The notes under the pieces are model-generated. The model saw nothing but the letters and a program-made list of their open reading frames with translations, searched no databases and had not been told where the DNA came from. From assembly GCA_026394075.1 (NCBI GenBank), contig JAPKYX010000014.1, forward strand, positions 1-38,071: 38,071 nucleotides of DNA, in the 5' to 3' direction. This document shows positions 19,373-33,222 of this stretch, in pieces (position 1 is the first letter of the stretch; every line of letters begins with the position of its first letter). Origin of the DNA: Acidobacteriota bacterium. GTDB taxonomy: Bacteria > Acidobacteriota > Terriglobia > Bryobacterales > Bryobacteraceae. A program made the position numbers and the translations under genes.

Positions 19373-19480
19373 TCAACGAATCTTCAACTCCCCGACGTAT
19401 CGGAGACCTTCTGCCAGCTCTTCCATCTCGTCCCGATTTCCTGCTGGAACTTCATGTACGGCAAATTTCAAGTAGCGCGG
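19373..19480 (-). other. Possible coding remnant in the gap after higA
   Basis: A minus-strand frame without a start reads A-I-Y-P-R-Y-L-K-F-A-V-H-E-V-P-A-G-N-R-D, then E-M-E-E-L-A-E-G-L-R-Y-V-G-E-L-K-I-R and a stop at 19373-19375. It has protein-like composition but runs into the PEP-CTERM gene in another frame. It may be the tail of a decayed gene or chance. The rest of 19235-19372 shows nothing. Confidence 0.15.
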
Positions 19481-20016
19481 ATAGATCGCCCTCGCGCCAC
19501 TCCCGCCAGCGCCAGAGCCAGCAGCAGAGCGGTTCCAGGTTCCGGCACTACCGTGATCGCCACCGGATCGAACGAAACGGGAATCTCCTGGGCACTCGAA
19601 TCGAGCAGGAGGATGTCAGTTAGCGTCACGGTCGTATGGCCCAGTTGGCGCCCCGTCACCCTTAGGATCGCCAGCGTCCCAGTGCCGCTGACGCCCGGCG
19701 GTGCTCCAAGCAGAGTCCCGAACGTCAACTGGACGGCACCGGACACGGGATCGATGGCTCCAGGAAACACCAAGCCTCCAGCGAGGAAGCCTCCGGCGGT
19801 TACGCTATCGATCGACAAGATCAGCGGATCAAAAGTCACTCCGAACTGGAATGCATAGAGATCGACGGCATCGATCACGTTGATGTGGATGTTGGTCGAC
19901 GCTCCCGCGGCCAGTTGGGTGGCGGCCGGTTCAAAGACGAGCATCGCCGCCGGAGAAGGGGCCACCGTCAGGGCCCCTAGAGCAATCGCCAGGATGTTGT
20001 AGTGCAGGTTTGGCAT
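19468..20016 (-). CDS. Cohesin-like domain protein with PEP-CTERM sorting signal
   Basis: A 182-residue exported protein: signal peptide (about 1-24, ending S-P-A-A), then a single beta-sandwich domain (about 26-152) of cohesin type. The first strand is M-L-V-F-E-P-A-A-T-Q-L-A-A-G-A-S, then come the Y-A-F-Q-F-G-V-T-F-D-P-L-I-L strand and a closing L-A-I-L-R-V-T-G block. The C-terminus is a classic PEP-CTERM tail: V-P-E-P-G-T (157-162), a hydrophobic helix (163-173) and R-G-R-S-I-R-A-T. PEP-CTERM proteins are processed by exosortase and sent to the cell surface or matrix; no exosortase gene lies in the window. GAAGGGA 6 bases upstream is a good ribosome site. It starts 29 bases after a dockerin-bearing protein, so it may serve as that protein's docking partner. 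Confidence 0.8.
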   Translation of the reverse strand: MPNLHYNILAIALGALTVAPSPAAMLVFEPAATQLAAGASTNIHINVIDAVDLYAFQFGVTFDPLILSIDSVTAGGFLAGGLVFPGAIDPVSGAVQLTFGTLLGAPPGVSGTGTLAILRVTGRQLGHTTVTLTDILLLDSSAQEIPVSFDPVAITVVPEPGTALLLALALAGVARGRSIRAT

Positions 20017-20045
20017 ACTGTTCCCTTCAGCTATTGATGCGGACG

Positions 20046-23000
20046 TTACGGGCAGGTGCTTCCTGCCGGTAGGCGCTGGGCAACGAACTGGAAGTCTCGC
20101 AGATCAATCAGGCCGTCACTGTTGACATCGGCGCGCACATCGAAACCTAGATCGCCGGGCTTCTTGCCGATGGCCAGCCGCACCAGCGCGAGGTCCTTGC
20201 AATCCACCACGCCGTCCCTGTTCGCATCACCCGGCAGGACGGTCGGAGGCGGTGGTGCCGGCGGCCCCGGCGGCAGTGGCGGTGGCGGGGTGCCGCCTGT
20301 TACGGGGGCCACGGTGCAAGCGGCCGATGCCGTCCGGATGTTCCCCGCGGCGTCGGTGGCTTGAGCTGCGAGGTTGTAGATCCGCGCTGTGCTGCCTGAG
20401 GTGGCCCGAAGGCTGAGGCTGCTGGAACTGGGCGTGAGTGTGGTCACCACTACGTCGCCGGCAGCCAGTGTCGATGGGCTGGTGGCACCCAGCTGGAGGG
20501 CACCGATCCCCGATCGTTCGTCCACCGCTTGGATGGGGCCGTAAGAGACCAGCCGCCCGTCCGGCGGGGCGATGGTGCACCCGGTTGGCGGCAGGCCAGC
20601 GATGGTGGGTGGGGTCTTGTCCAATCTCACCGTGGCCACCGCTGTCGCCACATTGCCCGCGGCATCAGTGCACGTCCGGCTGACATTGAACGTGCCCTCG
20701 GTGGTGAACCGGACGGGAGCCGGGGTGGTGGGGACACCCGCGCCCCCGGTGGCGTCCGTGCAGGTAGAGACCACATTCACATCGGATCTATTCCAGCCCG
20801 CCGCGTTCGGTGCTGGATCAAGGGCCAGCGTTAGTACGGGCGGCGTCCGGTCAATGTAGACCTTCACGGTGGCCGACCTGCGGTTGCCCGCCCGGTCCAC
20901 ACATTCACGGGTCAGTGTCGTGGTGCCGGAGGCGGAGACGCCAAAGTTCTGAGTAGCAGCGTTGACGCCGGATAGCGAGTCGGCACATTCGAGCACCGCG
21001 ACCACATTGGTGTTGTTCCAGCCCGCAAGAGTGGGCGTCGGCGTTACGCGGAAGGTGGCCGTGGGTGGCGTCTTGTCGATCTTCACCACCACGCTACGCG
21101 GGACCTCCGCATCGCCGGAGCGGTCAACGGCATAGAACGTGATGGTGGTGATCCCTTCCTGGCGGATCGGGACGTTGACCCGGCTGCCGGCGATGGTGGT
21201 GAGCGGGGTCACCACCGCGCCGGAGGTGGAGTAGCGGATCTCCTGCACGGTGCCATTGGGGCGTCCGGCCACCGCCGATAGCGAAACGGTCACGTCGGAC
21301 GCGCTCCAGAAGTCGAGGAACGGATTACCGCCTAGCGTCGCCACCGAGACCGGCGGGAAGTTGCCCACGCAGTCGGCACTGGCACAGGCGAACTTGGCCA
21401 GGATGCTCTTGGGCGACGTCATCGTGAAGGTCTGGGACTTGGACGTCGACGTGATGTCGCCCTGGAAGCTTTGAAAGGTGTTGCCGGTGGAGGCCGTGGC
21501 CACTACGTTGACTGACGTACCGGACTTGATCCATTGGCGTGGCGGGTTTACCGTGCCAGTGCAGGCGGGGCTGACCTGGCTGGCCAGTTCGTACTCGACA
21601 TCAAAGGCGGCTTGCACCACGGCATCCTGGCTCCGGATCGTCCGAAACGTTTTTTCGGAAAAGCCGGGCCACTCCCTGAAAACGGCCCGTGTCCCTGGGG
21701 TCAGCACCTGTGCGGTTTCCACCACACGGGCGACGTGTGAATTACCGTGCCGGAATGACTCCGGCGTCCACAGAAAGGTTTGGGGCGTCTTGTAGTTCAC
21801 TCCGTCCACCTGAATGGACAGCCCGGGCGGCGTGCTGGTGACTAGTATCGGTTGTACGTTGCTAAAGGTCAGGTTCAGCGTGACGGGCACCACCACCGGG
21901 GTCTGGCCGGGAGAGGCGATCTTGACGGAGCCGTTGTAGACGCCGGCGGCCAGCCCGTGCGGATCCACACCGATGTCCACCATCAAGCCGACTAGCTGTC
22001 TGGTAGTATTCGAGGCCGGCGTGAGCGAGGCCGTAATCCAACCGGTGTCCGGCGTGGCCGTAATCGGACCCCCTTCGTAGTTCACCAGTACCTGCTGCTT
22101 GGTGGGCACGGCTTGATTCGTGCTGGCAAACGAAAGGGGGCGCGCGTCCACCGCCAGGCTACCGTATATCTTCATCACCACCCCGATGGTGGCTGTGCCC
22201 ATTGTTACCGTCTCCTCATGCGTTCCGGGCACTCGGCTGCCCGGCGCCACCGTGACGTTGTACTGGTTGCTGGTGCCCACTCGCGCCACACTGACCACAG
22301 AGGGCGCTGAAGTGGTGATTGCGCCCGGGATCTGCGTTGCGGTGAGGGTCTGCGATTGGGGCGACGTGTTATTGGCCGGGAAGACAAATTCCAGCCGGGC
22401 GGGCGAGACGATGCCCGGAACCGTGACCGTAACACTGTCGCTGCTACTGGACCCATAGGTGGAATCCCGGCCGTAAGTGGCGCTGATGATGTGCTGGCCG
22501 GGCTCCAGCTTGGTGGAGGCGCAAGCCAGGTCGTCACCCGGACAGCTCACTGCCGTCAGCATCCCGTTGCTGTTGGCGGCCAGATTGTCTTGAAAGTTGT
22601 TGATGGGGATACGGCCTAACGTTCGGGTGACGGAAGACGACGCGCCCAGCGGTGTATAGGTATCGGAGAATGTCACGCCACCCGTGATTCCGATCGAGCC
22701 GCCGCTGATGGGGTCGTTCGGCTTTCGCCCGCAGGCGGCCGCGACCCGAGCCCGGAACAGCACTGGAGTGTCCGGATCATAGGCTCCCCGAGCGGCCGGA
22801 TCTACGGACAGCGCTGTGCGCGTCGGTTCCATCACGTGGGTCACCAGGAACCCCGCGGCCGACGTCGCGGCGGGTGAGGGAACCACATTCAAGGTCGTGG
22901 TGTAGGCTCCGGCGGGCAGGGTCTGAGCATTGGCCGGGTTGTAGGGCAGCGCGATCGGCACGGCCGCCGCCTCGAGGGATGTTGCCGTGTTGAATACCGG

Positions 23001-24872
23001 ATCGAGGCTAACCAGGTTGGAAGTATTGGGCGAGAGATTTGCTCGGAAAGAGTACTGCGGGAAGCCATCCACCATAAAGCGACCCGGCTCCGGCGCGGCA
23101 CCCGTGCGGTCCATGTAGGTGTTCAGGAGTGTGGGTGTGACACCCACTGGCGGAAAGGAGACGGCGCTGTAGTTTAGCCACACCTGGGTCAGGTTGGCCT
23201 GCGCGGCCGCCTGCTGCAGTGCGACATTGTCCGCCGGGTGCTCCGGATGGGCGAACGTCGTGCCCGATGGGCAGGCCACGCGGAAGAAGCTGGTGGAGGC
23301 CGTGAACCGCCACGTGTGGGTATCCCACTTCTTCAGATTGCCGTTGGTCACCTGGCAAGCTGCCGGAAGTGAGCTGGCAGGCGCATATGAGGTCCAGCGG
23401 CCGGTGGACACATTCATGACGGCGGGGCCGATGTTTCCGAAATCACCCTCCGCATACGACCAGATGGTCGCCTCCCGCCGGAGGTCTGCGCCGGAACGCC
23501 GGAAAGAAGCTGGCGCGCTGCCCAAGTGCAGGAAATAATCGAGGGCGATCAGCGAGATCCCGCATCCCGTCGCTTTGCGGACATCTGCTTCATTCAGCTC
23601 ATCGCCGGGGATATCCACCAAAGTGCGCCCCTCGCCCATATTCACCCATTTCCCGTCCCTCTGATATGACCGATAGCCCGACGCGCCAATGGTGCAGTTG
23701 TCGAACTGGCTATTGCGTACGCCGAAGTTTATTGGTTGCGAGGATTCCGCTTTGCCCGTGAATAGGTAAGGGCAGCCCGGCAGCCTATCTCCACCAGCAA
23801 TACAGTAGGAACGCGCTGCGTCAAAGTTGCCTTCTTCGGGGTCACCGGGATTGTTACGGCCGTTCATGATGATGATTTGCTTGCCGGCGGCGATGAGCTC
23901 CTTGAGCGATGGATAGTATCTGGCCCCATCAGTGGCGGGGCGCGCCGCAAGATCCGCCGGAGTGAAAATCTTTGATCCGAAGTATGTAGAAAGAGGAACA
24001 TTGATATAGCGATCGGGCGAGTTGTCCCTTGCGCCAGAGGGAAAATTGTAGCCGGGCGGGCCACCGTCACTCATGGTCAGGATGATTACTTCGTTGGGAT
24101 GGGCCACCAACCAATCGTTGATCTCCTGGATCGACCACGCCCACAGACGGTTGGTCACCTTCGAGTAAGTCGCCACAGGCGCTGCGGCGATCAGGGCGGT
24201 ATTGAGGATTGCGGGAATCGGATAAGGGATCAACAAATTGATGGGAGCCACAAAAGGCGCCAGCGCCAGCGCGGCCCCAATCGCCTGCGCAACGCCCAAA
24301 CTCTCGCACTGCGTGTGGCTACTGCAGTGGGCCGCCCGGACTTGGCCAAAGTAGTACTGCGGATCGATGCGGATCAGTCGGGCTCCTTGATTCAACTGGT
24401 CAGTCATGGAATAGTACTGGTTTAAGTTAAGGAGGTTGCGATTGCCGTCCTGATAGTTACTATGCGAGCCATGAGTTCCGAGAGTGGTGACGAAGTTGAT
24501 CGGCAGGTGTTTCTGTATCCCGTTGCGCTGCTGGCTTAGTGCCCAGGCCGCCCAGGATTTATCCTCGCCCACGGTGTCGCGTGTGGAGTTCACACAGGTA
24601 CCGCCCGCGGCGAAGATGGCCTTGAAATACCCGTTGGATGGCTTCAAGCCGGTATCGCAAAAGCCATTGCCACCGTTCCAGAACTCGTTGTCCGTCATGG
24701 TGCAGGCGCGCTGATCCTTGCCGCCGCAATCAGGGATGGTGATGGTATCGGCCAGCAGTGGGGCACATCCCGCTAGTAGCACTAGCAGCAGAAGCTTCAG
24801 CGCGACGCCGGCGCTGGCTTGCCCGCATCGTCCGATGCGGTAACGAATGAGATAACTGGTTCGATCAAACAT
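20046..24872 (-). CDS. Giant exported PI-PLC-like, multi-Ig protein with C-terminal type I dockerin
   Basis: 1608 residues with a perfect AGGAGG 5 bases before the ATG. A signal region ends near residue 42; the L-A-G-C36 box could make it a lipoprotein. Residues about 120-450 resemble a PI-PLC X-type phosphodiesterase: T-L-G-T-H134-G-S-H-S-N-Y, T-D-Q-L-N-Q-G-A-R-L-I-R-I-D170, and H-P-N-E-V-I-I-L-T. Then come a Big_3-like Ig domain (about 685-818), a BACON-like domain (about 905-1003), an InlB-like/PEGA-like region (1008-1163), and three Ig-type repeats marked by D-K/R-T-P-P at 1266, 1341 and 1418. A Pro-rich linker (1527-1547) leads to a dockerin: both calcium loops, D1549-x-N-x-D-G and D1582-x-N-x-D-G, have all ligand positions including D1557/D1560 and D1590/D1593. 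The substrate is unproven. The cohesin-like gene follows directly. Confidence 0.85.
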   Translation of the reverse strand: MFDRTSYLIRYRIGRCGQASAGVALKLLLLVLLAGCAPLLADTITIPDCGGKDQRACTMTDNEFWNGGNGFCDTGLKPSNGYFKAIFAAGGTCVNSTRDTVGEDKSWAAWALSQQRNGIQKHLPINFVTTLGTHGSHSNYQDGNRNLLNLNQYYSMTDQLNQGARLIRIDPQYYFGQVRAAHCSSHTQCESLGVAQAIGAALALAPFVAPINLLIPYPIPAILNTALIAAAPVATYSKVTNRLWAWSIQEINDWLVAHPNEVIILTMSDGGPPGYNFPSGARDNSPDRYINVPLSTYFGSKIFTPADLAARPATDGARYYPSLKELIAAGKQIIIMNGRNNPGDPEEGNFDAARSYCIAGGDRLPGCPYLFTGKAESSQPINFGVRNSQFDNCTIGASGYRSYQRDGKWVNMGEGRTLVDIPGDELNEADVRKATGCGISLIALDYFLHLGSAPASFRRSGADLRREATIWSYAEGDFGNIGPAVMNVSTGRWTSYAPASSLPAACQVTNGNLKKWDTHTWRFTASTSFFRVACPSGTTFAHPEHPADNVALQQAAAQANLTQVWLNYSAVSFPPVGVTPTLLNTYMDRTGAAPEPGRFMVDGFPQYSFRANLSPNTSNLVSLDPVFNTATSLEAAAVPIALPYNPANAQTLPAGAYTTTLNVVPSPAATSAAGFLVTHVMEPTRTALSVDPAARGAYDPDTPVLFRARVAAACGRKPNDPISGGSIGITGGVTFSDTYTPLGASSSVTRTLGRIPINNFQDNLAANSNGMLTAVSCPGDDLACASTKLEPGQHIISATYGRDSTYGSSSSDSVTVTVPGIVSPARLEFVFPANNTSPQSQTLTATQIPGAITTSAPSVVSVARVGTSNQYNVTVAPGSRVPGTHEETVTMGTATIGVVMKIYGSLAVDARPLSFASTNQAVPTKQQVLVNYEGGPITATPDTGWITASLTPASNTTRQLVGLMVDIGVDPHGLAAGVYNGSVKIASPGQTPVVVPVTLNLTFSNVQPILVTSTPPGLSIQVDGVNYKTPQTFLWTPESFRHGNSHVARVVETAQVLTPGTRAVFREWPGFSEKTFRTIRSQDAVVQAAFDVEYELASQVSPACTGTVNPPRQWIKSGTSVNVVATASTGNTFQSFQGDITSTSKSQTFTMTSPKSILAKFACASADCVGNFPPVSVATLGGNPFLDFWSASDVTVSLSAVAGRPNGTVQEIRYSTSGAVVTPLTTIAGSRVNVPIRQEGITTITFYAVDRSGDAEVPRSVVVKIDKTPPTATFRVTPTPTLAGWNNTNVVAVLECADSLSGVNAATQNFGVSASGTTTLTRECVDRAGNRRSATVKVYIDRTPPVLTLALDPAPNAAGWNRSDVNVVSTCTDATGGAGVPTTPAPVRFTTEGTFNVSRTCTDAAGNVATAVATVRLDKTPPTIAGLPPTGCTIAPPDGRLVSYGPIQAVDERSGIGALQLGATSPSTLAAGDVVVTTLTPSSSSLSLRATSGSTARIYNLAAQATDAAGNIRTASAACTVAPVTGGTPPPPLPPGPPAPPPPTVLPGDANRDGVVDCKDLALVRLAIGKKPGDLGFDVRADVNSDGLIDLRDFQFVAQRLPAGSTCP

Positions 24873-24953: not shown

Positions 24954-25364
24954 TCAAGTGCCTCCGAACTCCCCACACGCCTTACCCGTAAACCGCACGC
25001 CGTCCGACACGGAGCGGATTGCCCCTGGTAGTTCGGCTGCGGCGTTCTCCTTGAGCAGGTAGCCCCAGGCCCCGGCCGCCCAGGCCGCCTGCATCAGGGC
25101 TGGATCACGGTGGATGGTGAGCAACACTACCTTTGTCGGGGAAGTGTATTGCTGCAAGCGGCGGGCGATGGCAATTCCGTCCGCTTCCGGCATCTCGATA
25201 TCCAGCACGGCCACATCGGGCCGTAGCTGCTCGATCAACCGCCACGCCGTGCCGCCATCTCCTCCGACGCCCACCACCTGCAGTCCCGGCTCGCTGGCCA
25301 ACAGTTGCTCCATCGCGTTGAGAAAGCGCGCATGGTCGTCCGCCAGTAAGATGCTTGTGCACAC
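24954..25364 (-). CDS. Receiver-only response regulator (no output domain)
   Basis: A 136-residue REC domain of NarL type, with the acidic pair in L-L-A-D-D-H, the phospho-acceptor Asp in V-A-V-L-D-I-E-M-P, the Thr in V-V-L-L-T-I-H, and the Lys in Y-L-L-K-E-N. It ends at F-T-G-K-A-C-G-E-F-G-G-T, where the linker to a LuxR-type DNA-binding domain would begin; only 81 bases remain before the next gene, and they contain no HTH. It is either a natural single-domain regulator, acting by protein contact or as a phosphate sink, or a truncated NarL protein. The start is a GTG at 25364, and a CATACT hexamer 10 bases before it may be a leaderless -10. It lies between the HK/RR pair and the dockerin protein, all on one strand. 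Confidence 0.82.
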   Translation of the reverse strand: MCTSILLADDHARFLNAMEQLLASEPGLQVVGVGGDGGTAWRLIEQLRPDVAVLDIEMPEADGIAIARRLQQYTSPTKVVLLTIHRDPALMQAAWAAGAWGYLLKENAAAELPGAIRSVSDGVRFTGKACGEFGGT

Positions 25365-25490
25365 CAGAAACCGTAGTATGCCGGGACGGTGTCAGAACTG
25401 GAATAGCGACCACTCCGCAATCTGCTGAGTAGAACTACTTATCCCGATGACTTGAAGGGGGGGCGGCGCAGGGTGGCCGGTGAGGTGTGA

Positions 25491-26144
25491 CTACTCGAGT
25501 TCGGCCTTGTGTTCCAGCGCAAAGCGCAGCAACGCGTGAGCTCCACTGAGGCCTAGCTTCTGGCAGATATTGGCCCGGTGATTCTCCACCGTTCGCGGGC
25601 TGATGTTGAGTGTGGCGGCGATCTCTTTGTTGGTCTGGTAAGCGCCGATCAGTTGCAGCAGCCGGCGTTCATGGGTGGTTAGGGCCGCCACGCCCGGTTG
25701 TGCCGCGGCCAGGGCGGCTTCACGGCGGTTGCGGTTGACCAGATAGGTTGAGATGGCCGGGCTGATGAAGTACTGCCGAGCCGAGGCCGCATGGACGCTG
25801 GCCGCGATATCGGTTACCGCACTGTCCTTCAAGATGTAGCCATAGACGTTTAGGGCCATGGCCGCATTGAAGAGCTCCTCATCCTTGTGGAAGGTGAGGA
25901 TCACCACGGCGATCTCCGGCAGTTCCGTGCGCAGTAGCCGGATCACTTCCAGGCCATCCAGGCGCGGCATGTCGAGATCGAGCACGGCCACCGCGGGCTT
26001 CACTTGCCGCAGTAGGGTGAGCGCCACTTGGCCATCGTCGGCCTCGCCCACCACCTCCAACTCGGAGTCGCTTTCCAGCACTTGGCGCAGGCCCCGGCGG
26101 AAGACAGGATGATCGTCAGCTATGAGAACGCGAATGCGAGGCAT
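25491..26144 (-). CDS. NarL/FixJ-family response regulator
   Basis: A 217-residue DNA-binding regulator. The receiver domain (1-120) has D10/D11, phospho-acceptor D56 in V-A-V-L-D-L-D-M-P, and the conserved Lys in Y-I-L-K-D-S. The C-terminal LuxR-type HTH (about 150-212) has L-T-T-H-E-R-R-L-L-Q-L-I, then N-K-E-I-A-A-T-L-N-I-S-P-R-T-V-E-N-H-R-A and the I-C-Q-K-L-G-L-S-G helix. It overlaps the end of the histidine kinase gene by 29 bases, so the two are translationally coupled and form a cognate pair. Its targets are unknown; the downstream dockerin/cohesin genes are obvious candidates. The 126-base gap to the next gene holds no terminator that I can see. Confidence 0.93.
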   Translation of the reverse strand: MPRIRVLIADDHPVFRRGLRQVLESDSELEVVGEADDGQVALTLLRQVKPAVAVLDLDMPRLDGLEVIRLLRTELPEIAVVILTFHKDEELFNAAMALNVYGYILKDSAVTDIAASVHAASARQYFISPAISTYLVNRNRREAALAAAQPGVAALTTHERRLLQLIGAYQTNKEIAATLNISPRTVENHRANICQKLGLSGAHALLRFALEHKAELE

Positions 26145-29100
26145 GGGGCAGGTCGATGTCTAAAGTGGTGATGGTGCCGCGGCCGGGGGCGGATTCCAGC
26201 CGGTGCCGGGCTCCCAAAATACGGGCTCGTTCACGGATGCTGGTGAGGCCGAAGCCCTGGTGCGACCGGTCCAAGGCAGACGCGATTCCGCAGCCATTGT
26301 CCTCCATTCGCAGCATGAAGCCGGCGGCCGTCTCCTTCAGCACCAACCGCGCTTCGGTGGCCTGGGAGTGCCGCAAGATGTTGTTCAGCGTCTCCTGGAC
26401 CACCCGGTAAAGGTGGATCTCATTGTCCGGGCTGAGCCGCCCATCGATGTTGTCGATATCGGTGGTGAAAGCGATTTCAGAAGCGGCCTCCGCACGTTGC
26501 ACCAGCGAGCTGAGGGCGCTCGTCAATCCCAATCGTTCCAGTTGTTGCGGCCGCAGGTTGCGGGCCAGATTGCGGACCTCATCAATGGCTTCCCCGGCCA
26601 CCTGCGAAATCTCGGCCAGCGCTGGCTGGGCCTGTTGGGTTTGCGTCATGGCTAGCAGTGCTTGGTTGCGGATCACGCTGAGGTTCTGCCCGATACTATC
26701 GTGCAGTTCAGCGGCGATCCGTTTCCGCTCGGCTTCCTGGGAGGCGATCAGCAGTGCGGAGAACTGTTCCTGGGCGGCCCGCGCCGTCCGGAATTGCTGG
26801 ACCCTCATCCGGTAGGCCCACGCGACGGCCCCGGTCACCAGCAACCCCGCCAAACTCTGGAACCACCAACGCTTCCAGGGCGGCGGCACGATGGTGATCT
26901 TTAGCGTGGCTTCCTGCTTGCTCCACACGCCGTCACTGTTGGTGCCGCGGACCCGGAACAGATACTGGCCGCTGTCGAGATTGGTGTACACCGCCGTCCG
27001 GCCCGATGAATAGTGCCAGTCCTGATCGAAGTTCTCCAGCTTGTAGGCATACCGGTTGAGCTCCGGTGCCGAATAATCCAGCGCCGCATACTCCACCGTG
27101 AACATGGAATCTTTCCACGAAAGCTCACCTTCTCCTCGCTCAATGGCGCTGCTCAGCTGCCGTCCGCTGGCCTGGAACGAGGTCACCACCAGTGGCGGCG
27201 AGAAGGTACTGTCTTCCACCGCCTCCGGGCGAAACCGGTTGTAGCCGCTGACGCCGCCGAAGTACATGTGGTGCGTAGCGGGGGCGTAGTAGTCCGCGCC
27301 ACCGTTGAACTCGTTGTCCTGCAAGCCATGGCTGATGTTGTAGACCCGGAACTGCCGCCGATCCGGATCGAGGCGCGCCAGGCCGGAATTGGTGCTCATC
27401 CAGATCTGCCCCGCCGCGTCTTCCCGCAGCGCGTAGACCGTGTCGTTCGGCAGCCCGTCCTTCATGGTGAAGCGGGTGAATGTTCCGGAGGCGCGGTCCA
27501 GCAGGTTCAGCCCCACGGTCGTTCCCACCCAAACGCGACTCTGGCGATCGACCAATAGCGCGTAGACCGCTGCGGCGCTCAGGCTTTGGGGGTTCCGCTC
27601 ATCATGCGGAAAATGCTGGAAGCGGCCGGTCTTCAAGTCCAGGCGCTCCAACCCGTGATGCCGGGTACCGATCCAGTAGGTTCCATCGGGGTCGCGGGCA
27701 AAGGCGCGCACCTCGTTGCCCGCTAAGCTATCGGGCTGCGCCGGGTCATGCAGGTAGCGGGTGAACTGTCCGGAAGCAGCGTCCCAGCGGTTGAGCCCAT
27801 TACGGGTGCCAATCCAGGCGTGCCGCCCGTCGGCGTCGGGACTAACGAAAGCCACGTTGTCATCGCTGAGTGACCGGGGATCGGAAGGCACATTGCGATA
27901 GCTGCGGCCCTGCCCGGTGGCGGGGTTGAAGTCACTGATGCCCCGTGCGGTTCCCACCCAGAGGTGACCCGGAACCGGTCCCCGAGCAATCGAGGAGATG
28001 TTGTCGTCCGGCAAAGGCGATGGCCCCCCAGGCCGGCCACGATAGACGCGGAAGGTGCCCATTTCCGGGTCAAAGCGGTTTAACCCAAATCCCGTGCCCA
28101 CCCACGCCACACCGGCCTCGTCTTCATAGATGGCGTGGATCGAATTGTCGCTCAGTGCCGACCCGTTGCCCGACCGGAAGGTGACAAAGCGGCGGCCTGC
28201 CGCACTCAGCCGGCTGATGCCGCGGTTGGTGCCGAACCACAGCGTACCCGCCCGGTCCTCCAGAGCGCTGGCGACAACCCGGCCGCTCAAAGTCCGTTCA
28301 TCGGAGGAATCATGCCGGTAATGGGTCAACACGCCACCGGAGCTGCGGCGGACCAGTCCCTCAGAAGACCCAAACCAGAGATCACCCGCGCGGTCCTCCA
28401 CAATCGCCGAAACTTCCGGCTCTCGGAGGCTGCCTGGTCCCGTTGGCTGGAGACGAACGGTCGTAAACCTGCCGCTGGTAGGCTCCAGATAGCCAACTCC
28501 CTGGCCCGTGCCTGCCCACAGCCATCCGGCGCGATCCTCATAGAGCGCGACCACGCGATTGCTGGGCAAGCTGGCTGGGTTACCCGGTTGGGAGACGTAG
28601 TGCTGGAAGCGGCCGGTTCGAGCATCCCAGCGGTCCAGTCCTTGATTCCGCGTCGCAACCCACAGATTTCCCCGGCGGTCAGCCAGCAGTCGGACGATGT
28701 CGTCGCTCGCCAAACTATCGGGGTTTTGTGCATCGTGCCGGAACTGGCGAAACGTGCCGCGCGCCGGATCGAAGGCGTTGAGCCCCCCAAACTGCGTGCC
28801 GATCCATAGCGTGCCTTGACCGTCCTCCACCAGTGCCTGCGCGGCGTTATCGCTCAGCCGTTGGGGGTCCGGAGGCGCGGCCTGAAAGCGGGTGAAGGTC
28901 TCAGTCGCCCGGTTAAACGCCGCGATGCCGCCACCCGTGGTCGCTACCCACAGCACGCCACTGTGGTCCTCCGTGATGGCCGCAATCGAATTGTTGGGCA
29001 GCGATTGCGGATCGTCCGCCGCATGCCGGTAGACCCGGAATGTGTAGCCGTCATAACGGTTCAACCCGTCTTGCGTGCCGAACCAGACAAAGCCGCGCCG

Positions 29101-29319
29101 GTCCTGAAAGATGCACCGCACGTAGGCCTGTGACAGGCCGCTGCGCAGCCCGATCCGGTCGAATACCCCCGCATCCGGCACGTTGGCGCTGCGGATCGTC
29201 GCGCTGAGCGACAGTACCGAAAGGCCAAAATGTAAGAACGTTCGCCGCAATTGTCCAGCGTAGTCCAATTGCTCCGGCACGCGCTCATCCTGGGAGTCGA
29301 CCAGCAGCAGGGCGAACAT
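26116..29319 (-). CDS. Two-component sensor kinase with Reg_prop propellers, Y_Y_Y and HisKA_3
   Basis: A 1067-residue hybrid-type sensor without its own receiver. A signal-like stretch (about 27-45) precedes about 14 propeller blades (about 55-740), each with an L-W-V/I-G-T-x-x-G-L-N-R-Y/F-D-type step: two seven-bladed periplasmic propellers. A Y_Y_Y domain (about 745-810) and one membrane helix (818-838) follow. The kinase core has the phospho-acceptor H873 in A-A-E-L-H-D-S-I-G-Q, the N box near 979 and the ATP-binding D1007 in M-E-D-N-G-C-G. Relatives in Bacteroidetes and Acidobacteria sense oligosaccharides or other polymers and control uptake genes; the ligand here is unknown. The ATG at 29319 has no ribosome site, and a TTG further in, nearer the signal peptide, is possible. 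It is coupled to the regulator by a 29-base overlap. The 29320-29491 gap shows no clear promoter. Confidence 0.92.
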   Translation of the reverse strand: MFALLLVDSQDERVPEQLDYAGQLRRTFLHFGLSVLSLSATIRSANVPDAGVFDRIGLRSGLSQAYVRCIFQDRRGFVWFGTQDGLNRYDGYTFRVYRHAADDPQSLPNNSIAAITEDHSGVLWVATTGGGIAAFNRATETFTRFQAAPPDPQRLSDNAAQALVEDGQGTLWIGTQFGGLNAFDPARGTFRQFRHDAQNPDSLASDDIVRLLADRRGNLWVATRNQGLDRWDARTGRFQHYVSQPGNPASLPSNRVVALYEDRAGWLWAGTGQGVGYLEPTSGRFTTVRLQPTGPGSLREPEVSAIVEDRAGDLWFGSSEGLVRRSSGGVLTHYRHDSSDERTLSGRVVASALEDRAGTLWFGTNRGISRLSAAGRRFVTFRSGNGSALSDNSIHAIYEDEAGVAWVGTGFGLNRFDPEMGTFRVYRGRPGGPSPLPDDNISSIARGPVPGHLWVGTARGISDFNPATGQGRSYRNVPSDPRSLSDDNVAFVSPDADGRHAWIGTRNGLNRWDAASGQFTRYLHDPAQPDSLAGNEVRAFARDPDGTYWIGTRHHGLERLDLKTGRFQHFPHDERNPQSLSAAAVYALLVDRQSRVWVGTTVGLNLLDRASGTFTRFTMKDGLPNDTVYALREDAAGQIWMSTNSGLARLDPDRRQFRVYNISHGLQDNEFNGGADYYAPATHHMYFGGVSGYNRFRPEAVEDSTFSPPLVVTSFQASGRQLSSAIERGEGELSWKDSMFTVEYAALDYSAPELNRYAYKLENFDQDWHYSSGRTAVYTNLDSGQYLFRVRGTNSDGVWSKQEATLKITIVPPPWKRWWFQSLAGLLVTGAVAWAYRMRVQQFRTARAAQEQFSALLIASQEAERKRIAAELHDSIGQNLSVIRNQALLAMTQTQQAQPALAEISQVAGEAIDEVRNLARNLRPQQLERLGLTSALSSLVQRAEAASEIAFTTDIDNIDGRLSPDNEIHLYRVVQETLNNILRHSQATEARLVLKETAAGFMLRMEDNGCGIASALDRSHQGFGLTSIRERARILGARHRLESAPGRGTITTLDIDLPHASHSRSHS

Positions 29320-29611: not shown

Positions 29612-31819
29612 GTGACCAAGAGTGTTTTCGCTTTGGCGGTGCGTTGCTTTGCTTCGGTGATCCTGGCGGCCCTGGCGGTGGCTCCGGCGGCGTGGGCGCA
29701 GGTGGATTATCAGCGGGATGTTCATCCGGTGCTGGCGGCCAAGTGTTTTGCCTGCCATGGTGGGGATAAGCGTTCCGGCGGGTTGTCGCTGCGGGATTAT
29801 CAGAGCGTGCTGGATGGTGGGCGCAGCGGGGCGGCTGTGGTGCCGGGCGAAGGTGGCGAGAGCTTGCTGGTGCGGCGGGTGAGCGGTGAGATCAAGCCGG
29901 TGATGCCACCGGTCGGCGCGCCGTTGAATGAGCGCGAAGTGGCGGTGCTGCGGGCTTGGATCGACCAAGGGGCGCGCTCGGCTCCGACGGCGACCGCGGC
30001 CAAGCGGCGGTTTGTGGCGCCGCTGGAGCTGACCAAGCCGACGGCGACCTTTGAAGAACTGCTGGATGCGTATCTCAAGAAGAATGGCGTGACGGCTGCC
30101 CCGGTGGCCGACACTGTTTTTGCGCGCCGCGTCTATCTGGACTTGTGGGGCTTTCTGCCCTCGCCGGAGCAGTTGCGTGAATTCACTAGTGACAAGGGTG
30201 CCGACAAGCGCGGCCGACTGGTGCGGCAACTGCTCGCCCATCGCGAAAATACGTCCGAGCATTGGCTCTCCTACTGGAACGACCTGTTGCGCAATGAGGA
30301 CCGCTTTGGCACCTACGGCGGCGACCGGCTTTCGATCAGTCCGTGGCTGAAGCAGGCGCTTTCCGACAACATGCCGTTCGACCGGATGCTGCGCACTCTG
30401 TTGAACCCGCGCGAGAAGACGGACCCCGAAGGCTTCATCCGCGGCGTCAACTGGCGCGGCGAAGCCAACGCGTCACAGATGCCATGGATCCAGGCGGCGC
30501 AGAACACGGCGCAGGTATTTTTGGGGATCAACCTGAAGTGCAACTCCTGCCACGACAGCTTTATCAGCAAGTGGAAGCTGAAGCAGGCCTATGGCCTCGC
30601 GGCCTACTTTTCGCCGGACCCCAAGCTGGAGCTGGTCCGCTGCGATGCAGCGACGGGTGAGCACACCACCGCGCACTTCCTCTATCCGCAACTCGACCGG
30701 CCCGCGGGCGAGACGCTGAACGAGCGCCGCGCGACGGCCGCCGCCATCTTCACTGACCCGCGCAACGGCCGCACGCCGCGCACGATGGTGAACCGGATCT
30801 GGGCCAAGCTGCTGGGTCGCGGCATCGTGGAGCCAGTGGACGACATGGACCAGGAGCCCTGGTCACCCGAGATTCTGGACCGGCTGACCAGCGATTTTGT
30901 GGAGCACGGTTACGATCTGCAGTGGCTGATCTCGACCATCATCAGTTCGAAGGCTTATCAGCTGCCTTCGGTCGCGCAGCCAGATACGGTCTTCCGTGGC
31001 CCCTCCATTCGCCGGGTGACGGCGGAGCAGTTTATCGACAGCATCTCGGCGATCACGGGCGAGTGGCCGGTGCTGCAGTTGAATAATTCGCGCGAAGCAC
31101 GCTACGTGCGCGAAGCTCGGCTGGCGTCTTCACCGCTGAGCCGGGCGCTGGGGCGGCCCTTCCGGGATCAGGTGATCACGGAACGGGCGACGGAAGCGAC
31201 TACGCTGCAGGCGCTGGAACTGGTGAATGGCAAGGATCTCTACCAGCTGGTCTATCGCGGGGCTCGGCGGATGCTGGGGCAACTGCCGCCGTCTCCGAAG
31301 CCACTGTTTGATTCGCTGGTGATGCGCGGTGACACCAAGCCGGTGGCGATCGATCTGCCGGTGGCGGGCTTGAAGCAACTGTATCTGGTGGTGGCGGACG
31401 CAGGCTCGTACGCGACGGACATGGTGAAAACCAACTGGACTACTGACGCGTTTGGGGTGATCGACACGGGTGCGGTCTCAACCAAGGTGGTGGAGCTGAC
31501 GGGCAAGAATCTTGATCGCTTCAAGGCCTCGGTTCGGGTGGACCCTTCGGTACATCGCAGTGACATCAATCCTTCGGTGCGGTTTTTTGTTTTCGCCGAA
31601 AAGCCGAACTATCAGCAACTGGTCCCGGTGGCGGAGCAGCGGCCGGCACCGCTGGCGGAGACGACGAAGGCTCAGCTGGCGCGGCGGGTCTTCCAGCATG
31701 CGATGGGGCGCGATCCGCTGCCGCGTGAACTGCGGCTGCTGCGGACCGAGACTCCGGAGGAGTTGGCGGATCTGGTGTGGGCCTTGTCGATGACGCCCGA
31801 ATTTCAGTTGATTCCGTAG
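29612..31819 (+). CDS. PSCyt1-DUF1549-DUF1553 exported protein with inserted C-terminal domain
   Basis: A 735-residue protein with a GTG start and a signal peptide (about 1-30, ending A-W-A-Q). The N-terminal planctomycete cytochrome C domain has C45-F-A-C48-H49 and a likely distal ligand M98 (V-M-P-P). DUF1549 follows (about 145-345) with a second heme-type motif, C310-N-S-C313-H314. DUF1553 starts near residue 370 and is interrupted near its end, at about residues 565-660, by a beta-rich insert (L-Y-L-V-V-A-D-A-G-S-Y-A-T-D) that recalls NPCBM-like carbohydrate-binding modules. The end (Q-L-A-R-R-V-F-Q-H-A-M-G-R-D-P) returns to DUF1553. The role is unknown, perhaps electron-linked breakdown of a polymer together with the DUF1501 partner. 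TATAGA at 29598-29603, 8 bases before the GTG, may be a leaderless -10. Confidence 0.88.
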   Translation: MTKSVFALAVRCFASVILAALAVAPAAWAQVDYQRDVHPVLAAKCFACHGGDKRSGGLSLRDYQSVLDGGRSGAAVVPGEGGESLLVRRVSGEIKPVMPPVGAPLNEREVAVLRAWIDQGARSAPTATAAKRRFVAPLELTKPTATFEELLDAYLKKNGVTAAPVADTVFARRVYLDLWGFLPSPEQLREFTSDKGADKRGRLVRQLLAHRENTSEHWLSYWNDLLRNEDRFGTYGGDRLSISPWLKQALSDNMPFDRMLRTLLNPREKTDPEGFIRGVNWRGEANASQMPWIQAAQNTAQVFLGINLKCNSCHDSFISKWKLKQAYGLAAYFSPDPKLELVRCDAATGEHTTAHFLYPQLDRPAGETLNERRATAAAIFTDPRNGRTPRTMVNRIWAKLLGRGIVEPVDDMDQEPWSPEILDRLTSDFVEHGYDLQWLISTIISSKAYQLPSVAQPDTVFRGPSIRRVTAEQFIDSISAITGEWPVLQLNNSREARYVREARLASSPLSRALGRPFRDQVITERATEATTLQALELVNGKDLYQLVYRGARRMLGQLPPSPKPLFDSLVMRGDTKPVAIDLPVAGLKQLYLVVADAGSYATDMVKTNWTTDAFGVIDTGAVSTKVVELTGKNLDRFKASVRVDPSVHRSDINPSVRFFVFAEKPNYQQLVPVAEQRPAPLAETTKAQLARRVFQHAMGRDPLPRELRLLRTETPEELADLVWALSMTPEFQLIP

Positions 31820-31833
31820 GAGGAGATAGAGCA

Positions 31834-33222
31834 ATGATCACCATGGACCGGCGAACCTTTCTCTCCACTCTGGCAGCGGCTTCCGGACCCGCGTTGCAGG
31901 CTTCAGAACAGAAGCTGACGCCCACCGCGGACACGATGATCGTGCTGTGGATGGGCGGCGGCATGGCGCAGACGGAGACGTTTGACCCGAAGCGCTACAC
32001 GCCCTACGCGCCGGGCACGCCGTCGAACCAGGTGCTATCGACCTTCAAGCCGATCGATACTGTGGTCGACAATATCAAGCTCACTGAGGGCCTGGAGAAC
32101 ATCGCGCAGGTGATGGACCGGGGCACGCTGATCCGCAGCTATCAGGCGGCGGATCTGGGGTTCATTCTGCATTCGCGGCATCAGTACCACTGGCATACCG
32201 GCTACGCTCCGCCGCAGACGGTGGCGATGGCGCACATTGGCGCGATGATCTCGAAGACGTTGGGGCCGCGCAATGCGGAGATGCCCGCGTTTATTGACGT
32301 CGGGCAGGACATGGAGATCGGCGCGGAGAGCCAAGCGGTGAAGGCGTTCCACACGGCGGGCTTCCTAGGCGCCGAACATGGCCCGTTCATGATTGTGAAC
32401 CCGGAGGACGCGGCGTCGAGCGTCAGGCCGTTGAAGGAGCTGGGCGACAAGCGTTTTGCGAGCCGCCGCGAACTGTGGCGGCAGCTGACGAAGAACTCGC
32501 CATTGCAGCAGGCGGGCGGGTTCCAGAAGGAATCGCTGCTGCGTTCGGTGGAGTCGGCGCACCGGCTGCTGGATTCGGCCTCGGCCAAGGCTTTTGACCT
32601 GTCGCTGGAACCCAAGGCCAGCTTTGACCGCTACAACACGGGCCGCTTCGGCCAAGGCTGTCTGCTCGCGCGGCGGCTGACGGAGGCGGGCGCGCGGTTT
32701 ATCGAAGTGACAACCGAGTACGTCCCCTTCCGCCACTGGGACACGCACGAGAACGGGCATGAGCGCGTCGTCGAGATGAAGCGGCAGATCGACCGGCCGA
32801 TCGCGCAACTGGTGCGCGACCTCGAAGAACGCGGCCTGCTGAACCGCACGCTGATCGTGCTGGCCAGCGAGTTCGGGCGCGACATGATGATGGAAGGCAA
32901 GCCGGGCAATCTCGTCAAGAACCAGGTGGACGTGCCCGACATCATCAACAGCACCAAGCACTACGGCATGCACCGCCACTTCACCGACGCGGGCAGCGTC
33001 CTGTTATTCGGCGGCGGCATGAAGCGCGGCTATCTCTACGGCGAAACCGCGCCGGAGCGTCCGTGCAAGACGATCAAAAACCCGATCGGCATTGAAGACC
33101 TACACGCAACGCTCTACCGCGCCATGGGCATCCCGGCGGACACGGCCCACATCACCGAGAAGCGCCCGGTCTATGTGACGCGGGACGGCAAGGGCAAAGT
33201 GGTGACGGACTTGCTGGCGTGA
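31834..33222 (+). CDS. DUF1501 protein, Tat-exported, second copy
   Basis: A 462-residue partner of the preceding gene. The start at 31834 is set by AGGAGGAGA (31818-31826), which overlaps the upstream stop region; a start at 31777 lies inside the other gene. A Tat-type signal (M-D-R-R-T-F-L-S-T-L-A-A-A-S-G) opens the protein. The DUF1501 blocks follow: M-I-V-L-W-M-G-G-G-M-A-Q-T-E-T-F-D-P, then H-W-D-T-H-E-N-G-H, then V-L-A-S-E-F-G-R-D, with candidate metal ligands Asp, His and Glu. It differs clearly in sequence from the copy at 15872, so the two pairs are distant paralogues rather than a recent duplication. The activity is unknown. Confidence 0.9.
   Translation: MITMDRRTFLSTLAAASGPALQASEQKLTPTADTMIVLWMGGGMAQTETFDPKRYTPYAPGTPSNQVLSTFKPIDTVVDNIKLTEGLENIAQVMDRGTLIRSYQAADLGFILHSRHQYHWHTGYAPPQTVAMAHIGAMISKTLGPRNAEMPAFIDVGQDMEIGAESQAVKAFHTAGFLGAEHGPFMIVNPEDAASSVRPLKELGDKRFASRRELWRQLTKNSPLQQAGGFQKESLLRSVESAHRLLDSASAKAFDLSLEPKASFDRYNTGRFGQGCLLARRLTEAGARFIEVTTEYVPFRHWDTHENGHERVVEMKRQIDRPIAQLVRDLEERGLLNRTLIVLASEFGRDMMMEGKPGNLVKNQVDVPDIINSTKHYGMHRHFTDAGSVLLFGGGMKRGYLYGETAPERPCKTIKNPIGIEDLHATLYRAMGIPADTAHITEKRPVYVTRDGKGKVVTDLLA

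Follow-up and report, generated by a model that had tools for sequence, protein, structure and literature searches.

We have analysed a stretch of 38,071 nucleotides (the window) from contig JAPKYX010000014.1 of an Acidobacteriota bacterium of the family Bryobacteraceae (assembly GCA_026394075.1). In it, two adjacent genes on the reverse strand encode a large exported protein that ends in a dockerin and a small protein in which a cohesin domain is followed by a PEP-CTERM sorting tail (Table 1). An initial annotation, made from the sequence alone, had read this pair as a dockerin-bearing phosphodiesterase and its anchor, that is, as a candidate surface-docking system. The two open reading frames (ORFs), their coordinates and the 29 bases between them, as given there, agree with the ORF list of the window. 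The GAAGGG in the gap lies about 8 bases 5' of the ATG of the small gene, as read from the sequence, and no terminator-like site was reported within these 29 bases.

Table 1. Positions of the two genes, their domains and the gap between them in the window.
Feature	Position	Strand	Basis
Gene, small cohesin/PEP-CTERM protein, 182 residues	19468..20016	(-)	ORF and Pfam/NCBIfam
Cohesin domain, residues 33-140	19597..19920	(-)	PF00963, E 7.2e-5, slightly below cut-off; PDB matches of profile A5
PEP-CTERM sorting tail (VPEP, hydrophobic stretch, Arg)	19483..19548	(-)	PF07589 and TIGR02595, both above cut-off
Intergenic gap, 29 bases, with ribosome-binding-like GAAGGG	20017..20045	(-)	
Gene, exported dockerin cargo, 1608 residues	20046..24872	(-)	ORF and Pfam
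C-terminal class-A dockerin, two complete calcium loops, Cys 1558 and Cys 1607	20049..20237	(-)	PF00404, E 7.1e-8
N-terminal candidate enzyme region, remotely PI-PLC-like	23298..24737	(-)	Homologues, alignment A4
OmpL47-type beta domain within the Ig-like middle region of the cargo	21078..21251	(-)	NF047446, E 5e-12, best stretch residues 1208-1265

The C-terminus of the large protein carries the two D-x-N-x-D-G..D..D repeats of a type I dockerin, as seen in the sequence, in the Pfam match and in the alignment A1 of 19 dockerins of the window's type (class A, described below; the near-copy L103 was left out). Both calcium loops described in the initial annotation are complete, D-A-N-R-D-G..D..D at residue 1549 and D-V-N-S-D-G..D..D at residue 1582, and the Pfam match to Dockerin_1 covers residues 1547-1601 with 33.0 bits. 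The structural model of this domain (predicted local distance difference test (pLDDT) 95.6, predicted template modelling score (pTM) 0.81) has the dockerin fold. Its best structural match is 2y3n_B (Z 7.9, root-mean-square deviation (rmsd) 1.6, 52 aligned residues), tied with the second, 2ozn (Z 7.8, rmsd 1.5, 53 aligned), and all 35 listed entries contain a dockerin. In a Foldseek search the top PDB matches were also dockerins, with a probability of 1.00 and a best E value of only 3.0e-3. The A1 profile matched 32 PDB sequences at E <= 0.001 (best 1.3e-13), which are mostly dockerins, three of them being named calcium-binding protein 1. Besides the calcium ligands, two extra Cys are invariant in all 19 rows of A1, the class being defined partly by these Cys. 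The first occupies loop position 10, a partner-recognition position in clostridial dockerins, and the second lies at the C-terminus. We propose that the two may form a disulfide; the dockerin would then be more rigid, with its second repeat alone free for binding.

The small protein was described as cohesin-like with a PEP-CTERM tail, and both assignments agree with the family searches. The Pfam Cohesin match reaches 23.4 bits against the curated 24.1, and 24.1 bits with its neighbours in frame, and the tail scores above its thresholds in PF07589 (21.0 against 20.7 bits) and TIGR02595 (17.4 against 16). The N-terminus looks like a signal peptide by eye. When the single sequence was compared with the PDB, only weak matches appeared, the first being a cohesin at E 0.31; this weakness was resolved by A5, a profile of six such cohesins, which matched 15 PDB sequences at E <= 0.1 (best whole-sequence E 7.8e-10), all 15 of them named cellulosomal scaffoldins, scaffolding or anchoring proteins. 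The single-sequence model of the window cohesin (pLDDT 34) is not usable for the fold. The two modules belong to their families by sequence, and the dockerin also by fold.

For the rest of the large protein, NCBIfam finds OmpL47-type domains. The PI-PLC identity that had been assigned to its N-terminal region is not confirmed: Pfam gives no PI-PLC X domain in the window protein, and a single homologue, L252, matches PF00388 at E 6.3e-4, below the cut-off. The enzyme-region alignment A4 has one nearly invariant His column, and a PDB search with this region returned nothing useful (best E 0.6).

The arrangement recurs in the source genome, of which the assembly comprises 5.77 Mb in 302 contigs and is 96.9% complete. 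Four dockerins exceed the Pfam cut-off, on contigs C55 (that of the window), C39, C51 and C220, and all are C-terminal. Each of the four genes is followed by a short PEP-CTERM gene on the same strand, which encodes a cohesin or a cohesin relative, at stop-to-ATG distances of 29, 23, 173 and 29 bases, respectively. With 79 PEP-CTERM matches (E <= 1) over an estimated ~5,073 genes, the chance per next gene is about 1.6%, against four out of four observed. Three of these partners match Pfam Cohesin; the C220 partner, which stands beside a nuclease, has no match, and comparison of its set's profile with that of the cohesins gives a probability of 97.5 (E 5.9e-12). We also considered that the pairs are recent copies of one another and rejected this, because both cargos and partners differ. 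The genome encodes exosortases, with three PF09721 matches (E 2.6e-72, 1.0e-63 and 3.1e-12), two of them very strong. Its Pfam cohesins number four, each on a separate contig, and searches with Pfam Cohesin and profile A5 found no cohesin beyond those of the pairs and a secretin-like frame on C136. No multi-cohesin scaffoldin, as expected of a cellulosome, was found in this genome, and none of the three cargos scanned there has a glycoside-hydrolase match, the fourth being frame-broken. This fourth cargo gene (L010; C51, 7810-11155) lies in two overlapping frames, which is due to a frameshift or an assembly error, and its cohesin partner is intact.

We then surveyed 150 genomes of the window's GTDB family, Bryobacteraceae, and examined 65 of the 66 listed dockerin places (G080, below the cut-off, was left out). 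Under a strict rule, a dockerin gene counted as paired when a gene of 130-260 residues with a PEP-CTERM-like tail started at most 200 bases downstream on the same strand. The dockerins were sorted into classes by regular expressions written after their neighbours had been seen, of which that for class A requires the two Cys. The strict rule was passed by 26 of the 65 places: 14 of 20 in class A, 6 of 8 in the nuclease-linked class B, 5 of 6 in class C, and 1 of 6 among other C-terminal dockerins (L092, class-C-like). It was passed by none of the 14 C-terminal dockerins of class D (two of which have less than 150 bases of flank), the 3 internal ones of class D and the 8 other internal ones. The initial finding is real and larger than first noted, being a recurring cassette of cargo and anchor.

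In class A, the neighbouring gene is a cohesin/PEP-CTERM gene at 18 of the 20 places, and at one more (L084) it stands at one gene's remove, the cohesin starting 837 bases downstream with an ORF of 269 residues between. At L076 the cohesin gene is the next gene and was missed by the strict rule because its tail has no basic end; at L075 it stands tail to tail with the dockerin gene, at L087 directly upstream, and at L077 upstream and divergent. L091 is the sole class-A place with no cohesin/PEP-CTERM gene nearby. The neighbourhood is therefore kept while gene order and strand vary. The 20 places include L103, the near-copy of L104. Of nine nuclease orthologues (>= 45% identity), seven have a dockerin and a partner; in G096 the partner is broken, and G016 has no partner gene and a dockerin whose second loop looks degenerate. 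Two further observations concern the contigs themselves. L103 (G104 C1, 8158 bases) carries inverted near-copies of a dockerin/cohesin pair that is also on C4, probably an assembly artefact. At L139 (G070 C3, near 61300), a pair of the C39 type apparently lost its dockerin end and the signal region of its cohesin together across a junction.

Cohesins occur in 129 of the 150 genomes, and among the matches listed many lie in frames of about 780-930 residues, of which the copy in the source genome was the only one read. This copy (L011; C136, 8303-10846) is a secretin-like protein of 848 residues with a C-terminal cohesin. The true receptor of the dockerin could accordingly be the cohesin of such a secretin-like outer-membrane protein, in which case docking would be a step of secretion and the neighbouring PEP-CTERM protein would be co-regulated or competing. 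We regard this as very unlikely. Only 47 of the 150 genomes yielded a dockerin, so that at least 82 have a cohesin without a Pfam dockerin, and a distant receptor leaves the adjacency of the class-A genes unexplained.

Based on these comparisons, we consider it probable that the window pair is a docking cassette of one cargo and one anchor, in which the cargo is held via the cohesin at the cell surface or in its matrix. The signal peptide would direct the large protein to export; at its C-terminus this protein, as is true of most of these cargos, would lack a membrane anchor. The small protein would also be exported, and an exosortase would recognise its PEP-CTERM tail, so that the single cohesin would become fixed to the cell surface or its matrix. 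The C-terminal dockerin of the cargo would then plug into this cohesin in a calcium-dependent manner, and the cargo would be kept at the cell. Genomes of the Bryobacteraceae type could hold several such cassettes with unrelated cargos, and each pair may be specific.

The cargos themselves are diverse. Among the paired ones scanned we found LTD and nuclease domains, Ig-type domains, DUF7035/MG2, or no known domain except the dockerin; a Vps10-like match was obtained for L091, which is unpaired. A strongly hydrophobic stretch at the C-terminus is absent from all 23 cargo frames checked, among them L091 and the upstream part of the interrupted C51 gene. Homologues of the window enzyme region occur in 9 of the 150 family genomes, its own included (8 of the other 149), and are absent from both same-genus genomes. 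At the eight other homologues no dockerin place was listed, two of these genes (L248 and L250) being cut at a contig end with their C-termini unseen. Large exported proteins with no dockerin and with a short PEP-CTERM gene immediately after them were also seen at L247, L249 and L281; these are possibly other types of cargo/anchor pair.

Several observations weigh against the docking cassette. Among the 34 dockerins of classes A to C, 9 failed the strict rule, and for four (L091, L107, which is broken, L109 and L117) no intact partner was found. Of the 19 partners in classes A and B, 7 have no Pfam cohesin match at E <= 0.1 and 6 have no PEP-CTERM match (12 and 13 have them), and the resemblance of the class-C partners to cohesins is only weak, with a probability of 46 between the profiles, a match to a PDB cohesin at E 0.0042, and a Pfam cohesin match in one of six at E 0.19. 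Pfam coordinates place cohesins near class-D dockerins as well, two at L100 (within the dockerin frame and downstream of it) and a single one at L096, about 1.3 kb off on the opposite strand. None of these is a next-gene PEP-CTERM protein, and they were not seen by our own cohesin profiles. The correlation between the distance matrices of dockerins and cohesins (r 0.60, permutation p 1e-4, 18 pairs; r 0.41, p 2.5e-4 for 17 pairs, L086 excluded), which counts in favour of the cassette and suggests that the partners travel together, can also arise through shared descent. In addition, the signal region of the window cargo holds a lipobox-like LAGC, the sole case among the 23 frames, so that this cargo might be lipid-anchored without a cohesin.

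In an alternative reading there is no docking at all: each small protein would be an ordinary PEP-CTERM beta-sandwich and each dockerin a calcium-stabilised end cap, with the adjacency reflecting co-regulation only. The marginal cohesin score of the window protein and the partners with no cohesin match agree with it, and so do the dockerin-less enzyme homologues L247 and L249, which precede a PEP-CTERM gene of another kind, with no Pfam cohesin in the L247 partner. However, next-gene PEP-CTERM pairing tracks the dockerin class, being found in 26 of 35 places of classes A to C with L092 and in 0 of 30 others under the strict rule (Fisher p 7.5e-11), a contrast that is descriptive because the classes were drawn post hoc and A partly by its Cys. 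Also, the neighbourhood persists through changes of order and strand, and the PDB matches of A5 are all scaffoldin-type. Accordingly, we consider the absence of docking unlikely. As regards the surface-docking system proposed in the initial annotation, its gene-level part is strongly supported by the cohesin match, the dockerin fold, the exosortases and the recurring neighbourhood of the modules. The phosphodiesterase label is weaker than it was given there. The dockerin/cohesin cassette recurs with differing cargos, and the exact enzyme of the window is not co-conserved with it.

Outside the family, 297 genomes of the phylum hold dockerins in 111 and cohesins in 169, and 12 places were hand-picked among the matches listed. 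In other Acidobacteriota families, at L257, L258, L262, L263 and L265 (where the dockerin match is partial, E 0.0028), a short cohesin gene comes directly after that of the dockerin, and the five cohesins have, by eye, a lipobox-like Cys and then a Gly-rich sequence at their N-termini. The cohesin gene precedes the dockerin gene at L260, whereas the cohesin frame after the dockerin gene at L259 is a longer one. At L261 there are cohesins and no dockerin match, and L264, L266, L267 and L268 have no match with our profiles. Similar pairs in other families appear to use lipoprotein cohesins. A wider scan gave at least 80 dockerin loci, mostly ordinary dockerins outside the family. Our cohesin profiles matched 11 of the 79 loci L156-L234, and these matches fall within the dockerin protein itself or seem spurious, except at L173 (a metagenome-assembled genome (MAG) of Alcanivoracaceae) and L192 (an unclassified bacterial MAG), where the gene next after the dockerin encodes a cohesin that ends in a plain membrane helix. 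From PEP-CTERM, lipoprotein-like and membrane-helix cohesins across these groups, the anchor appears exchangeable.

These anchors bear on where the cargo would be held. In a variant that overlaps with the docking cassette, the PEP-CTERM cohesin would be released into the exopolysaccharide and the dockerin would retain its cargo within the biofilm rather than on the cell. Passages of a paper on PEP-CTERM proteins (PMC1569441) agree with such a release, in that the exosortase gene is nearly always found amid exopolysaccharide genes and PEP-CTERM proteins are proposed to be cleaved and moved into the layer. On the other side, the lipoprotein-like cohesins in analogous pairs argue for a cell-bound anchor in those families. 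We regard release into the matrix as possible and lean against it. More generally, the Acidobacteriota pairs may follow a common grammar of surface display, in which any exported cargo receives a dockerin and is fixed by an adjacent, dedicated single-cohesin anchor, attached by exosortase, by a lipid or, beyond Acidobacteriota, through a membrane helix. Within the window's family, a disulfide-stapled dockerin with its first recognition site filled would then have one binding mode, and each pair in a cell its private specificity. We put this generalisation forward tentatively, as one that could well hold or fail.

Next to the pair, directly upstream on the same strand (24954-29319, (-)), the window encodes a receiver protein, a LuxR-type response regulator and a propeller-type histidine kinase, which are a candidate control system for the pair. 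Further on (29612-33222), a PSCyt1/PSCyt2/PSD1 gene is followed by a DUF1501 gene, a combination known from planctomycetes.

Adjacent cohesin and dockerin genes are known from Archaeoglobus. The system described here shares its two modules with the clostridial cellulosome: the dockerin model resembles solved dockerins, and A5 matches scaffoldin cohesins. Unlike the cellulosome, it has one cohesin per anchor, with a PEP-CTERM tail in place of S-layer or sortase anchoring, the scanned cargos of the source genome are not recognised as glycoside hydrolases, and the dockerin has two extra Cys. In NagJ/NagH, the cohesin resides on another enzyme. As in NagJ/NagH of Clostridium perfringens (2ozn), a secreted, non-cellulosomal protein carries the dockerin, which there binds the cohesin of its partner; here, by contrast, the cohesin is on a small PEP-CTERM protein from the adjacent gene. 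Anaerobic methanotrophic (ANME) archaea and other prokaryotes have cohesins and dockerins without cellulosomes, for which surface attachment has been suggested (PMC5244752, PMC9012536), and their function outside cellulosomes is stated as not known in a passage of the former. Unlike our system, these passages count domains and note multi-cohesin proteins, and hold no fixed cargo-anchor gene pair and no PEP-CTERM cohesin. With PEP-CTERM/exosortase sorting, the small protein shares the PEP motif, the hydrophobic stretch and the basic end, and the genome has the exosortases; neither "cohesin" nor "dockerin" occurs in the text of the PEP-CTERM paper (PMC1569441). In the literature searched, dockerin or cohesin domain was not mentioned jointly with PEP-CTERM, an earlier description elsewhere being possible, and dockerin and exosortase appeared together only in the ANME review (PMC5244752).

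In summary, a recurring pair of cargo and anchor offers a concrete and easily tested function for non-cellulosomal cohesins and dockerins, and such cassettes may explain the role of these modules in bacteria without a cellulose-degrading machine. If the proposed docking is true, it joins the cohesin-dockerin and PEP-CTERM/exosortase systems, which are hardly connected in the literature searched, and provides several natural candidates for orthogonal binding pairs from a single cell. Compared with the systems known so far, surface docking with one cargo and one anchor is best read as a new variant among the non-cellulosomal cohesin-dockerin systems.

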